A DNA stretch of 36,515 nt from a virus. Both the position numbers and the translations under genes were made by a program. Each line of letters begins with the position of its first letter. Position 1 is the stretch's first letter. This document shows positions 2,900 through 8,286 of this stretch, piece by piece. The notes under the pieces were generated by a model. It saw only the letters and a list, made by a program, of their open reading frames with translations. It was not told the origin of the DNA and searched no databases. The stretch is from positions 1 to 36,515 of IMG/VR virus record IMGVR_UViG_3300010354_000247, one strand, 5' to 3'.

Positions 2900-3676
2900 G
2901 TGCCATTTCCCAGAAGTATATCTAGTGTAAAATCTTTATTTGGAAATTTAGCTCAAACTTCACACTATGAAGTTAAATTTGGTGGATTATCTAATGATCT
3001 TTCCACCTTTTTATTATCAAAGGGAATAACTCCATTTTTTACTGGTGGAGACTTTGGATTACTATGTTTTTCTGCTTCTCTACCTACGTCTTCTTTTGCA
3101 ACGTCAGAAGTATCTCCATATATTGGATTGAGGGAAAAGATAGCTCATACACGTTTATATACAAATATAACATTAGAATTTTATGTTGATAGTAATTATC
3201 AAACATTAAAATTATTAGAGCACTGGATGGATTATATTTCAAGTGGATCTTCTGCAAATCCAGTTTCAAATGAGTACTTTATTAGAATGCAATATCCATC
3301 TTCTTATAAGTCTGATCAAACTAAAATTGTAAAATTTGATAGAGATTATAATAGAGAAATTGAATATACTTTTAGGGGATTATTTCCAGTTTCTATTTCT
3401 AGTATTCCAGTTTCTTATGGACCATCAGATACTTTAAAAGTTGCTGCAACATTTGAGTATGATCGTTATATTTGTGGAAAAACAACCAGTATTTCAGTGT
3501 ATACTGGAAATTCGGAGAATAAAGATCCAATAATAAGAACTCCAAGAGTTCCAATGTCACCAGGTCAGGCAGGAACTTCTGGAGTTGTTTTTAGACCTGC
3601 AAATATGACACCAACTGAAGCCATAGTTAAGGGTGAGTTATATACAAGTTTAACTGGAAATCAAAAAGCGGTCTAA
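2900..3676 (+). CDS. 54: Tail tube-like protein (gp54/gp19 fold), probable tail tube initiator
   Basis: A 258-residue protein that opens with a GTG codon; no in-frame ATG exists nearby upstream and MPFPR is a natural beginning. The pattern HYEVKFGGL near the N-terminus, LCFSASLPTSSFATSEV (about 54-70), a central ALIP-like beta segment with the LEFYVDSNYQ stretch, and a RGLFPVSISSIPVSYG beta-hairpin (about 158-173) fit the T4 gp19/gp54 tube superfamily, which polymerises or caps the inner tail tube. T4 gp54 is 320 residues. The major tube gp19 is normally about 160-210 residues and lies elsewhere, so gp54 is preferred. It begins the plus-strand hub operon, directly before gp26. Confidence 0.72.
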   Translation: MPFPRSISSVKSLFGNLAQTSHYEVKFGGLSNDLSTFLLSKGITPFFTGGDFGLLCFSASLPTSSFATSEVSPYIGLREKIAHTRLYTNITLEFYVDSNYQTLKLLEHWMDYISSGSSANPVSNEYFIRMQYPSSYKSDQTKIVKFDRDYNREIEYTFRGLFPVSISSIPVSYGPSDTLKVAATFEYDRYICGKTTSISVYTGNSENKDPIIRTPRVPMSPGQAGTSGVVFRPANMTPTEAIVKGELYTSLTGNQKAV

Positions 3677-3701: not shown

Positions 3702-4421
3702 ATGCCATTACCAAAAGTATCTACACCAACTTATGAGTTGGAAATACCTTCAATAAAGAAAACAATTAAATATAGACCTTTTCTTGTAAAAGAAGAAAAG
3801 ATTTTGATTATTGCAATGGAAAGCGAAGATCCAAAGCAAATTACTGAAGCTGTAAAAGATGTGATAAGTAATTGCATTATTACTAGAGGTGTTAAAGTTG
3901 ATTCTTTAGCAACCTTTGATATTGAGTATCTCTTTTTAAATATAAGAGGAAAATCTGTTGGGGAAACTGCAGAGGTATTAATTACTTGTCCAGATGATGG
4001 AGAAACTCAAGTTCCCGTTACAATTAACTTAGATGATATTAGAGTTGAAGTTAATAGTGAGCATAATAGAGATATTCAACTCGATAAAGATTTAAGCATT
4101 AGGATGAAATATCCTTCTATTCAAGAGTTCATTAACAATAATTTTATTAAAAATGATCAAATTAGTGTTGATGACACTTTTGGAGTTATTTGTTCGTGTA
4201 TTGAGCAAATTTATAGTGAAGAAGAGTCTTGGTCTGCGTCTGATTGTAGTAAAAAAGAATTAGTAGATTTCTTAGAATCTTTAAGTTCAAAACAATTTAA
4301 ACAGATTGAGAAATTTTTTGAGACTATGCCAAAGTTAAGTCATACTATTAAAGTCACTAATCCAAACACTGGAAATGAAAATAAAATAGTTTTGGAGGGA
4401 TTAACATCTTTTTTCGCTTAG
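3702..4421 (+). CDS. 26: Baseplate hub protein / tail assembly chaperone gp26
   Basis: A 239-residue protein starting MPLPKVSTPTYELEIPS; an in-frame TTG at 3693 exists, but the ATG at 3702 is the better start. KYRPFLVKEEKILIIAMES and TRGVKVDSLATFDIEYLFL followed by RGKSVGE are the signature of the T4 gp26 family (T4 gp26 is 208). T4 gp26 is a baseplate hub assembly factor; the fold class is akin to tail assembly chaperones. A -1 slippery heptamer (4409-4415) lies just before the TAG, followed by a hairpin, so a minor product of about 299 residues fused to the next ORF is predicted. ATA codons occur (at least five), as in other late genes. Confidence 0.85.
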   Translation: MPLPKVSTPTYELEIPSIKKTIKYRPFLVKEEKILIIAMESEDPKQITEAVKDVISNCIITRGVKVDSLATFDIEYLFLNIRGKSVGETAEVLITCPDDGETQVPVTINLDDIRVEVNSEHNRDIQLDKDLSIRMKYPSIQEFINNNFIKNDQISVDDTFGVICSCIEQIYSEEESWSASDCSKKELVDFLESLSSKQFKQIEKFFETMPKLSHTIKVTNPNTGNENKIVLEGLTSFFA

Positions 4422-4448
4422 CCATGACGCATGAAAGTCTTGCGTCAT
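4409..4448 (+). promoter_or_regulatory. Predicted programmed -1 ribosomal frameshift signal
   Basis: Slippery heptamer T TTT TTC at 4409-4415 in the correct phase of gp26 (codons TTT 4410, TTC 4413), an 8-nt spacer containing the gp26 TAG, then a perfect 8-bp stem: ATGACGCA (4424-4431), 9-nt loop, TGCGTCAT (4441-4448). A -1 slip would read CGC TTA GCC and continue into the 58-residue ORF. The stem also buries that ORF's own ATG. All parts are directly visible; function is inferred. Confidence 0.7.
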
Positions 4449-4600
4449 ATTATAAAATAAATTTTGCTCTTATTCAACATCATAAATATAGCTTGACGGA
4501 ATTGGAAAACATGATTCCTTGGGAAAGAGAAGTCTATGTTTCTTTATTACAGCAATATATTGAAGAGGAAAATTTAAAGAACGGTATGAATAATGGCTGA
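4424..4600 (+). CDS. Small gp51/T-like tail chaperone C-terminal extension (58 aa or fused to gp26)
   Basis: ORF in the -1 frame relative to gp26, beginning 2 nt after its stop. The core SLTELENMIPWEREVYVSLL resembles the conserved end of tail-assembly chaperones (a Glu-rich helix with MxPWERxxY). In marine T4-like phages a small protein at this place is often labelled gp51, though T4 gp51 itself is much longer (249). Its ATG is the first base of a strong hairpin stem and no clear Shine-Dalgarno precedes it, so translation by -1 frameshift from gp26 is likely, in the manner of lambda gpGT. Its end overlaps the next gene's start by 8 nt. Confidence 0.7.
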   Translation: MTHESLASYYKINFALIQHHKYSLTELENMIPWEREVYVSLLQQYIEEENLKNGMNNG

Positions 4601-6302
4601 GCAAGTCGTACCACTTACGGGATCTCCTTTATCTCAAGAATCCAGGCAAGTTATTGCTAGAACTACAAACTTGTCTGGTCAAACCATAAGAGGTGCAAAT
4701 TTATTATCACCAATAACCCCAAGTGAAACTGAGATTAAAAATCTTCAGGCAACTCAACAAAATCAAGCATCTTTAGTTGAAGTACAAAGTGGATTATTGG
4801 GAATTAAACAGGATATTAATCAATTAAATTCTGGTTTAATTTCTATTGCAACATTATTGCAACAAGATGCTACATCTGAAGAGAATAATTTAAGAGCACA
4901 ACAGGAAAGTGAAAGAAGACTTGCAGAGCAGCAAATAAGACTTGGAAAAGAAAACGAATTAGAGAAAAAAATACAAGCGGCAATTGTTGCTCCAGTAGCA
5001 AAAATTGCACCAAAAATACAAGATCTATTTGGAAATGTTTTACAATCTTTAACTTATCTTTTTGGTGGATGGTTAACTAGTCAAGTAATTGATTATATTA
5101 AGAATGAAGGTGAAGGAAATAATGAAAGATTAACTGAAATTAAAAATAATATTATAAAAAATCTTGGTATTGCTGGTGGAATACTAATAGCAGTAAAATT
5201 TGGATTTACTGCTTTAAGAAAATCTTTAGTTGGTGCTGTTGCACAAGTTTCTAAATTATTAGGAAAAACTGTTGCTGCACCATTTAATGCTATAAAGGGA
5301 GTAATTGCAGGAGGTAATAAAACACCATCTTCTTCTGGATCTTCTAAATCATCTGCACCACCATCAGCAAAACCTGCTGGAGGTATTGTTTCTGGTGCTA
5401 AAAATTTTATAAAAGGATTAGGACTTCCGCTAATAACTGGATCGGTAATGACTGGTCTTGATATTGCTTCTGGAGAAGATCCAAAAAGAGCAACCGCAGG
5501 AACTATTGGTGGGATGATTTCTTCTGGTGCTGCCTTTACTATGGGATCTTTATTACCTATTCCGGGGAGTGGTTTAGTTGCAGGAGCACTATCTTATGGT
5601 CCTGGACAAGATTTTGGAAAAGGACTTTATGATAAATTTTTTGGATCTCCACCAACAGTTCAACCTGAACAAAGTAAAACGGAAGCAGTAAAATCTGAAG
5701 TTAAACCACAAGAAAATAAACTACAATCTCCAGTAACAACTCCAAAAATTCAAACATCAAATACTAAAACAGAAGCATTAAAACCATACTCTTCTCCTCA
5801 AAGTGAAATGGTTTATGAACCAAAAATAAATGTTCCAGATTATTCAAATGTTTTTAATCTTTCTGTAGATAATACTTTTAATAGTATGAAATTAACAGAG
5901 GAAAATAAATCGGAAACTGAATTGAAAGGGAATGAAAATACAACATCTATGAGTAAAAGTAGTACTTTTACTCCATCTTCATTATTTGATCCAGCAAATT
6001 CTCAAAATTTTATTGCAGATTATAATAATTTAGTTTCTTCTGAAAATGCACCTCAAGTTGATAATTTAATACAACCTTCTCAAATTCAAAGTATACCTTC
6101 ACCTTCTCCACAAATTAGTCAACTACCTGAACCAAAACCAAATATAATTTATTCATCTCCAAACTCTTCACAACAACAATCCCCACAAATGAATCAAACA
6201 GCATTTAATGGTCCTTTGACAGATGTACCTTTAATTAGATCATCAAATCCTGATAATTTTTATACTTTGTATTCATATTCTTGCTATAACGTGGTGATAT
6301 AA
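4593..6302 (+). CDS. Tape-measure/hub-like virion protein (gp29 position)
   Basis: A 569-residue protein of no certain family. Residues about 45-140 are predicted coiled coil with many Gln/Glu (QQNQASLVEVQSGL, then AQQESERRLAEQQIRLG). Hydrophobic segments follow at about 148-165 (LTYLFGGWL at 153-161) and 190-212. Residues about 265-340 are Gly/Ala-rich with alternating small residues, then about 200 residues of low-complexity Pro/Gln/Ser/Asn. Coiled coil plus hydrophobic core, and its place directly after gp26 and the T-like ORF, fit a tail tape-measure role (T4 gp29 is 590 residues). It shares an L-x-YL-x-GW motif with the next protein, suggesting duplication. Identification is inference. 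Confidence 0.5.
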   Translation: MAEQVVPLTGSPLSQESRQVIARTTNLSGQTIRGANLLSPITPSETEIKNLQATQQNQASLVEVQSGLLGIKQDINQLNSGLISIATLLQQDATSEENNLRAQQESERRLAEQQIRLGKENELEKKIQAAIVAPVAKIAPKIQDLFGNVLQSLTYLFGGWLTSQVIDYIKNEGEGNNERLTEIKNNIIKNLGIAGGILIAVKFGFTALRKSLVGAVAQVSKLLGKTVAAPFNAIKGVIAGGNKTPSSSGSSKSSAPPSAKPAGGIVSGAKNFIKGLGLPLITGSVMTGLDIASGEDPKRATAGTIGGMISSGAAFTMGSLLPIPGSGLVAGALSYGPGQDFGKGLYDKFFGSPPTVQPEQSKTEAVKSEVKPQENKLQSPVTTPKIQTSNTKTEALKPYSSPQSEMVYEPKINVPDYSNVFNLSVDNTFNSMKLTEENKSETELKGNENTTSMSKSSTFTPSSLFDPANSQNFIADYNNLVSSENAPQVDNLIQPSQIQSIPSPSPQISQLPEPKPNIIYSSPNSSQQQSPQMNQTAFNGPLTDVPLIRSSNPDNFYTLYSYSCYNVVI

Positions 6303-6303
6303 T

Positions 6304-8286
6304 ATGGAAATGTCTGCAGATATAATATCACAAACTTCTAGTATTAATAACATATCAAAATCGATTTCTACCACAAGGTCTTCTTTATCTAGCACTAGTT
6401 CTTCAATTAATAGAATACAGAAAATAATATCAACAAAGACTAAAGTAAGGAATGATTTATTTTTTAAGAATCAAATACTAGAAAAAAGAAGATTAGAGGC
6501 AACAAAAAGAAGAGATCTTGAAGATCAAATTGAAGCTTCAAAAGTATCTACAAATATACAGTCTGGACTGAAAGTAGCGTCGTCAAGTGGTCAGGGACCT
6601 CTTGGAAGAATTTTATCATTTTTAGGATATTTGGGTGCTGGGTGGATTATTGAAAATCTGCCAACTTGGATAGCAATGGGAAAAGAATTCATCATAAGAA
6701 TGAAAAAGGCGGGAGAAATTATTTTTTCAATTCCAAATACTATGTGGAGAATCTTACAAAATTTTGGAGGATTATTAAAATCTACTGGTGACAATATTAA
6801 GAATTTAGATTTTACAGATTCTTCTAATAATATAAGAGATTCTTTTACTGAATTGACCAATACTGTCGATTTATTGGGATTTCAAATATCAGAAGGGTTT
6901 AAATTAATGCTTAAACCTAGTGGTGAAGTTGATATACCATCTACCGGAGAACAACAACCTGATACTGATTTTCCAGAAGTTCCAGCACCTTATCCTGGTG
7001 GTGGAACTCCGGGGCAAGGAGGAAAATTACAACCCATTCATAGACAAGCATTAGATATTATCTCGGGACCAGAAAGTGGTGGTGATTATAATGCAATGAA
7101 TAATGGGAGAGCGGGTGATAGACCTGGTGGATCTAAAAAATGGCTTGGAAAAAATCTTACTGATATGACAATTGGTGAAGTTAAAAATTATCAAAATGTA
7201 AAGGAAACTTTATGGGCGGCTGGAAGATATCAGATTATTCCAACATCTTTACCAACAGCTCAATCTGCAGCTGGATTAAAAGATAATGATATGTTTGATA
7301 AAAATAATCAAGATTTATTAGCAATTGGATTATTAAAGGTTCAAGGTCCAGGTGCTTGGTCTAAGTATTCCAAATATTCTAAAGAAGAAATATCTATAAT
7401 GTATAAAGCGAAAGATACTCCTTTAGGAAAATCAGTTCCTTCCTCACCTCCACCAAAATCAACAATAACTCCACAAACTCCATTATCTACTAGTTTCGCA
7501 CAGGTTACTGGAACAAGTGGAAATTCTCAGGGAAATAAACCATTAAGTGTTCCCTATAGTCCGTTTAAACCAGGATCTGGAGCAACCATAACATCAGGAA
7601 AAGGATTGAGAAATGGAAGACAACATACTGGATATGATTTAGCAGCGTCTCCAGGGACACCATTGTATGCATATTTTCCTGGAAAAGTAACTCATATAGG
7701 TTTAGATGGAACTTCATCTAGTGCTGGATATGGAAATTGGGTTGTATGGAAAGATGACATATATGGAGCATATCACTTTTTTGGACACATGAAAGGTCGC
7801 CCACCAGTAAATGTTGGACAACCTGTAAATCAAGGTACTTTAATGGGTAATGTAGGTAGTACTGGGAGATCTACTGGACCTCATTTACACTGGGAAATTT
7901 CCAATAATCCACCACAATCAAATGGACAATTTACTTCATATGAAGATCCTGGTTCATGGTTAAGAAAACATCCATTAAAAAAAGTTGATTCTCAACCTAA
8001 TATTGTATCACCATCATCAATACAAACACAACCTCAAATTCAAGAAATTAAACCTGAATTACAACCTCAACCACAAATTTCTTCACCCATAACTGAAAAA
8101 AACATAGTTCCTGAAAGGATTGGACAACAAATTCTGTTTATTGATAATAAATCTCCAGAACAGCAATCAATTTCTACACCTCCTTCCAAATCATATGGTG
8201 GTGATGTTTCTGGACAAATAACAGAATTTGATATGTTAAATAACTTTATGAAGCAAAAATTACTCTTAGATTTTAATTACCTATAA
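6304..8286 (+). CDS. Hub/tape-measure-like protein with transglycosylase and M23 peptidase domains
   Basis: A 660-residue protein. Residues 1-90 are coiled-coil-like; 100-140 hold hydrophobic helices with FLGYLGAGW (106-114), echoing the preceding protein. Residues about 243-370 look like a lambda-endolysin-type lytic transglycosylase: ISGPESGGDYNAMNNG with Glu257 as likely catalytic acid, and AAGRYQIIP at 305-313. Residues about 415-540 are an M23 (lysostaphin-type) endopeptidase: HTGYD (H441, D445), HFFGH (491-495) and HLHWE (H527, H529), which supply the zinc ligands and catalytic His. The rest is Pro/Gln-rich. Probable role: opening peptidoglycan during injection, at the tip of the tail. 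Its stop overlaps the gp27 start by 1 nt. Confidence 0.8.
   Translation: MEMSADIISQTSSINNISKSISTTRSSLSSTSSSINRIQKIISTKTKVRNDLFFKNQILEKRRLEATKRRDLEDQIEASKVSTNIQSGLKVASSSGQGPLGRILSFLGYLGAGWIIENLPTWIAMGKEFIIRMKKAGEIIFSIPNTMWRILQNFGGLLKSTGDNIKNLDFTDSSNNIRDSFTELTNTVDLLGFQISEGFKLMLKPSGEVDIPSTGEQQPDTDFPEVPAPYPGGGTPGQGGKLQPIHRQALDIISGPESGGDYNAMNNGRAGDRPGGSKKWLGKNLTDMTIGEVKNYQNVKETLWAAGRYQIIPTSLPTAQSAAGLKDNDMFDKNNQDLLAIGLLKVQGPGAWSKYSKYSKEEISIMYKAKDTPLGKSVPSSPPPKSTITPQTPLSTSFAQVTGTSGNSQGNKPLSVPYSPFKPGSGATITSGKGLRNGRQHTGYDLAASPGTPLYAYFPGKVTHIGLDGTSSSAGYGNWVVWKDDIYGAYHFFGHMKGRPPVNVGQPVNQGTLMGNVGSTGRSTGPHLHWEISNNPPQSNGQFTSYEDPGSWLRKHPLKKVDSQPNIVSPSSIQTQPQIQEIKPELQPQPQISSPITEKNIVPERIGQQILFIDNKSPEQQSISTPPSKSYGGDVSGQITEFDMLNNFMKQKLLLDFNYL

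Follow-up and report, generated by a model that had tools for sequence, protein, structure and literature searches.

Comparison of gp26 genes across the relatives of phage T4 makes it very likely that gp26 undergoes a programmed -1 ribosomal frameshift that adds a second domain to the protein; there are no protein, ribosome-profiling or reporter data, and both the slip and its rate are inferred. The case considered here is the window, by which we mean the whole stretch of DNA analysed, a 36.5-kb virus record whose closest named relatives are T4-like cyanophages. In the proposed mechanism, the ribosome would slip back by one base on reaching T TTT TTC, a heptamer that lies immediately ahead of the stop codon of gp26, so that one mRNA would yield two proteins: G-like gp26 as the abundant product and, in the minority, a GT-like gp26-gp51 fusion. 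A downstream hairpin would probably aid this slip in the window, and an internal GGAGGG may also do so. Phages of the T4 group would instead make these products from a pair of paralogues, genes 26 and 51. The analogy with lambda suggests that the tape measure protein would be coated by the short form, and that the C-terminal domain of the long form would recruit tube subunits.

The frameshift site of gp26 and its conservation

The gp26 gene of the window (plus strand, 3702-4421, from ATG 3702 to TAG 4419-4421) encodes a G-like 0-frame product of 239 aa, which belongs to the T4 gp26 family PF12322 (T4_baseplate; 253.3 bits against a Pfam cut-off of 24.5) and to PHROG_150 (baseplate hub). The gene ends with the codons ..TCT TTT TTC GCT TAG, where the heptamer T4409 TTT TTC (4409-4415), of the X XXY YYZ type, is in the 0-frame phase and the stop follows one codon past it, with the -1 frame open beyond this stop, namely, from 4409 to a TGA at 4598-4600. 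A slip would lead into the stretch 4415-4600 (plus strand), which encodes a T-like domain of 61 residues plus stop, homologous to residues 201-249 of T4 gp51. The predicted fusion (plus strand, 3702-4600, read as 3702-4415 and then 4415-4597) would have 238 + 61 = 299 residues; it is inferred from the sequence, without protein data. The predicted sequences are IVLEGLTSFFR / LAMTHESLASYYK for the fusion, IVLEGLTSFFA for the end of gp26 and MTHESLASYYK for the N-terminus of a free -1-frame product. Downstream of the heptamer, after a spacer of 8 nt (4416-4423), there is a perfect stem of 8 bp with a loop of 9 nt, formed by the 5' arm ATGACGCA (plus strand, 4424-4431), which holds the ATG of the -1 ORF, and the 3' arm TGCGTCAT (plus strand, 4441-4448). 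The preliminary description, made from the sequence alone, had proposed exactly this heptamer, phase, stop position, spacer and hairpin, and all of these held at every coordinate, as did the open -1 frame and the length of the fusion, the latter remaining a prediction. The description had not included the Shine-Dalgarno-like GGAGGG (plus strand, 4394-4399), which ends nine bases before the heptamer.

The site lies between a tail tube gene (plus strand, 2900-3676; PF23849, 2.7e-17; PHROG_45, 3.5e-41) and an ORF of 569 aa (plus strand, 4593-6302) that overlaps the end of the -1 ORF by 8 nt. This large ORF has no clear family match and is only a weak candidate, by position, for the tape measure protein; large ORFs at the corresponding place in phages phiM19 and QD01 match tape-measure PHROGs with E of 1e-4 to 1e-5. 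Relatives differ in the length of this ORF, which spans about 425-700 aa within the window clade, and a tape measure might vary in this way. Further along, the product of 6304-8286 is a tail-region protein of 660 aa that carries an M23 peptidase domain (PF01551, 7.8e-21), and on the minus strand 2427-2864 encodes a head closure protein (PHROG_218) that also matches a TnsA-like endonuclease fold (PF08722, 2.9e-24). Several gp26 relatives have zinc-ribbon-like pairs of CxxC, which are absent from the window protein and from most cyanophage members.

Across 11,071 codon steps in the main genes of the window, the only in-phase T TTT TTC is the one at 4409-4415, and this heptamer is retained in 80 of 80 close relatives. 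Five IMG/VR scans with diverse gp26 queries, supplemented with named phage genomes, yielded 349 gp26-type loci whose gene end could be read; these searches matched peptides within gp26, not the junction. An in-phase heptamer, within 31 nt of the stop, is present in 335 of them (T TTT TTC in 316, T TTT TTT in 19), down to about 22% gp26 identity, the carriers including the Aeromonas phages Aeh1 and Ah1, the Vibrio phages QD01 and ValKK3, Stenotrophomonas phage BUCT608, Xanthomonas phage X1, Sinorhizobium phage phiM19 and Methylophilales phage Melnitz-3. Thus, the check proposed in the preliminary description, that heptamer and phase be looked for in related phages, was passed decisively, and its view that such a frameshift is not a standard feature of T4-like phages has to be revised: the site is close to standard across the T4 superfamily outside the T4 group. 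The 14 loci without the heptamer comprise 12 Tevenvirinae (the T4 group), in which the ORF found is gene 51, with the domain already fused in one ORF, and two divergent vibriophages with an overlapping TAATG in its place, which indicate that the domain can be expressed by other means. In the Vibrio phages K493 (locus L092, 2708-2890) and YC (locus L095, 2714-2920), gp26 is followed, with no slippery heptamer, by a -1-frame ORF starting at a TAATG that overlaps the gp26 stop, likely a reinitiation variant; YC is classed in Ackermannviridae, and its -1-frame ORF matches the gp51 family.

Since the sequences are related, the raw locus counts are not independent, and controls were therefore taken within the genes. 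In a non-redundant set of 176 loci (under 90% DNA identity), the codon preceding the heptamer ends in T in every case despite the varying residue (Ser 98, Asn 42, Ala 20, Asp 14, His 1, Thr 1), compared with background T-ending shares of 63% for Ser, 74% for Asn, 34% for Ala and 78% for Asp. The second Phe codon of the heptamer is TTC in 168 of these loci, as against 27% elsewhere in gp26. At the heptamer Phe codons, the third-base majority is 100% in three clades, compared with 52-97% at further conserved Phe positions in these genes, among which another Phe-Phe pair served as an internal control. Heptamer and phase are thus conserved beyond codon usage.

The -1-frame domain and the flanking signals

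Conservation of the -1 frame as coding sequence is shown by comparison: the domain of about 60 residues encoded in this frame at heptamer loci aligns across all lineages, differences concentrate at third codon positions (58-72% in clades A-C), and the product of the window matches PHROG_634 at 4.7e-28. At 95 of the 176 non-redundant loci, the opening 10 codons of this frame include no ATG, GTG or TTG; separate translation from a usual start is therefore unlikely there, and, barring the use of unusual start codons, the domain cannot in general depend on an initiation of its own. In the start-less genomes of Aeh1, ACG-2014j, ACG-2014i, ACG-2014d and MbCM1, no gene is annotated at the conserved domain. 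The stem of the window begins with an ATG (4424), 2 nt past the gp26 stop; this ATG recurs in about 70 of 72 sequences of the window clade, so that some free 58-residue protein could be made. GenBank lists this ORF as cyanophage 'gp51', and its homologue in T4 is the C-terminal part of gp51. The earlier statement that the ATG of the 58-residue frame lies inside the stem holds for the window, and neither the ATG nor the hairpin is universal.

The hairpin of the window, taken alone, beats 98 of 100 synonymous recodings (z -2.4). Averaged within clades, the same recoding gives z values of -4.4 (window clade) and -3.7 (ACG-2014j-like clade, where the stem has a different sequence), as compared to -0.3 and 0.0 for control segments within gp26; no such local stem is seen in the MbCM1-like clade (z 0.1) or in the mixed remainder (z -0.5). 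Among the 72 distinct sequences of the window clade, one base pair appears as U-A in 39, G-C in 27 and A-U in 2, and both-side changes at the stem fill 31 cells versus 11.8 in shuffles, while slid controls fail. This covariation ties the free third base of one codon to the middle base of another and therefore goes beyond coding alone. Covariation and the synonymous-codon null show that the hairpin is real and present only in two cyanophage clades, so that hairpin conservation, also among the checks proposed beforehand, held in part. Since the hairpin is limited to these two clades, the comparison shows the heptamer to be the core, universal part of the signal and the hairpin a clade-specific aid. 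A test of longer-range structure (60-120 nt) gave a stronger z in the mixed group and was set aside, because its codon pool is dominated by AT-rich cyanophages; an Rfam scan of the frameshift site gave no match.

The GGAGGG may be a third stimulatory element, its role being inferred. Its Glu codon is GAG in 53 of 60 members of the window clade, whereas the GAG share is 30% elsewhere in gp26. This bias is the one signal that stands out; in other clades the evidence is weak, and a general enrichment of Shine-Dalgarno sequences was not upheld. The E. coli dnaX -1 signal is known to consist of an internal Shine-Dalgarno, a heptamer and a downstream stem, and the window shares this three-part layout; dnaX differs in having another heptamer in an unrelated gene, and in gp26 the Shine-Dalgarno part is weakly supported.

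Alternative explanations

Could the conserved domain be made only as a separate protein? In this scenario, the 58-residue ORF would be translated from ATG 4424 by termination-reinitiation at TAGCCATG, with the hairpin regulating the start. In its favor are the near-constant ATG of the window clade, the annotation of gp51 as an ORF of its own in GenBank and the divergent vibriophages with TAATG but no heptamer. However, conservation of the ATG is accounted for by its pairing with CAT in the stem, the ATG is buried in that stem, no Shine-Dalgarno is found at the usual distance from it, more than half of the non-redundant loci (the 95 noted above) lack an early start codon, the T4 domain is made only as a fusion, and the invariant heptamer is left unexplained; we consider this reading very unlikely. 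A version of the best explanation, in which frameshifting makes the fusion and reinitiation adds a free T domain in the ATG-bearing phages, has on its side the same ATG, which the window shares with most of its clade; it is merely unlikely, but no start-site signal was found and no observation needs it.

The -1 reading could also arise from slippage of the polymerase, not the ribosome, on the T6/T7 run, as might be suggested by the element being a T run, with seven T in 19 loci. Yet T6 is generally short for polymerase slippage, the run ends in C in 316 of 335 loci against a TTT background of 73%, which fits tandem slippage of tRNA-Phe, and the hairpin in two clades fits ribosomal slippage too, so that transcriptional slippage appears very improbable. 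Finally, chance, or plain conservation of a Phe-Phe protein sequence beside a neighbouring gene, could be invoked because the genome is AT-rich (33% GC); this possibility is all but excluded by the variable third base at other conserved Phe codons, the invariant wobble T on a variable residue and the uniqueness of the in-phase T TTT TTC among the window genes. The programmed ribosomal frameshift thus remains the preferred reading.

gp26 and gp51 as a tail chaperone pair

How does T4 relate to this frameshift? Residues 1-201 of T4 gp51 (249 aa) match the whole PF12322 profile (3.9e-52), PHROG_150 matches gp51 nearly end to end (2.6e-84), and the -1-frame domain aligns with residues 201-249, the heptamer Phe standing opposite F200 of T4-type gp51. 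This two-domain alignment shows that the predicted frameshift product of the window is colinear with T4 gp51. A direct comparison of T4 gp26 with gp51 gives E 2e-6 and 20% identity over 161 residues, and a model of T4-type gp51 (pLDDT 93) has a gp26-like domain followed by helices. Sequence comparison thus supports the view, new here, that T4 gp26 and gp51 are paralogues standing to each other as G and GT: T4 gp26 is homologous to the 0-frame product of the window, and gp51 is homologous end to end to the fusion, but in T4 these are two paralogous genes on opposite strands, with no frameshift. We infer that T4 makes from two genes the products that its relatives would make from one, the fusion protein being as yet undemonstrated. 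A third paralogue, T4 gp28, was considered on the basis of a weak PHROG hint (T4 gp26 against the gp28 family PHROG_1140, E 9e-4; T4 locus L082, 1727-2353 against 4273-4806) that profile comparison did not uphold (gp26-family profile against T4 gp28, E 0.14). In Citrobacter phage Moon (KM236240, locus L355, 11607-13245), a relative of T4, gp27 is annotated as 'tape measure chaperone' and gp28 as 'GT-like fusion protein', an assignment contradicted by the sequence evidence, which points to gp26 and gp51.

Like gpG/gpGT of lambda and their P2 (E/E') and HK97 counterparts, which are tail assembly chaperones made via -1 frameshifting, gp26 and the T-like domain are encoded in adjoining ORFs, the second in the -1 frame and the first with a slippery heptamer shortly before it ends; the pair is likewise flanked by the tail tube gene upstream and by a large tail ORF downstream, and the predicted long product is the short one plus a helical C-terminal domain. 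The differences are that gp26 represents a distinct sequence family (PF12322), that its heptamer is T TTT TTC instead of the G GGA AAG known from lambda, and that its stop lies one codon past the heptamer, so that the ORFs barely overlap. The lambda analogy drawn in the preliminary description is supported by the two-ORF layout after the tail-tube gene and by the separate two-domain gene product of T4. From the position of gp26 and the -1 ORF, with the tail tube gene before them and the large tail ORF after them, and from the literature on T4 gp51, we infer that gp26 and the fusion act as assembly chaperones of tape measure and tail tube; the binding partners are inferred, without binding data. 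Sequence searches of the PDB gave no match, whether with gp26, with T4 gp51 or with the gp26 profile, and a fold search of the PDB with the T4-type gp51 model gave nothing meaningful. For the gp26 model, Foldseek against the PDB listed above probability 0.3 only HK97 2ob9 and YqbN 3klu, which we take to be a chaperone relative, at a non-significant E of 1.6-4, and Phage_TAC_3 matched weakly in 4 of 55 members (best E 0.068). As this fold link is only suggestive, we say by analogy that the gp26/fusion pair works like G/GT; homology or common ancestry with lambda G/GT is unproven. The two-gene form proposed for T4 has a single precedent in phage 0305phi8-36, where G and GT are two paralogous genes (PMC2147016); the relevant section of that paper does not discuss T4 gp26/gp51.

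T4 has been named in a review as the exception to the widespread frameshifted tail chaperone (PMC5009743). Sullivan et al. 2010 (PMC3037559) noted that cyanophage gp51 has about 20% of the usual (T4) length and that gp51 is 'missing' in Aeh1. The domain structure of gp51, together with the frameshift, would explain the short cyanophage gp51, the 'missing' gp51 of Aeh1 and the apparent exception of T4. The PRFect and GeneTack papers and a 2016 frameshifting review do not mention gp26/gp51 frameshifting in cyanophages or T4, and we found no report of it in the open literature; since subscription papers, including Xu 2004, were outside the search, priority is uncertain. Frameshifted tail chaperones as such are known; new, as far as the open literature shows, are their predicted occurrence across the T4 superfamily and the reading of T4 gp26/gp51 as G/GT.

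A bolder reading, which we favor by a modest margin, is that the T4 superfamily has its own G/GT system in which frameshifting is widespread, T4 26/51 being a resolved version with the duplicate permanently fused. The tree could be rooted only at the midpoint and does not decide the order of the gp26/gp51 duplication and the frameshift, so that the direction of change is unsettled. The present evidence brings the T4 superfamily inside the frameshift rule, predicts roles for gp26 and gp51 and indicates that gp51 is misannotated or unannotated in many cyanophage genomes. T4 gp26 is known as a baseplate hub subunit and T4 gp51 as an 'assembly catalyst' that is essential for assembly but has no known function and does not occur in the particle (PMC3004832); if the bolder reading is true, this 'catalyst' would gain a role as a GT-type initiator linking the tape measure and the tail tube.
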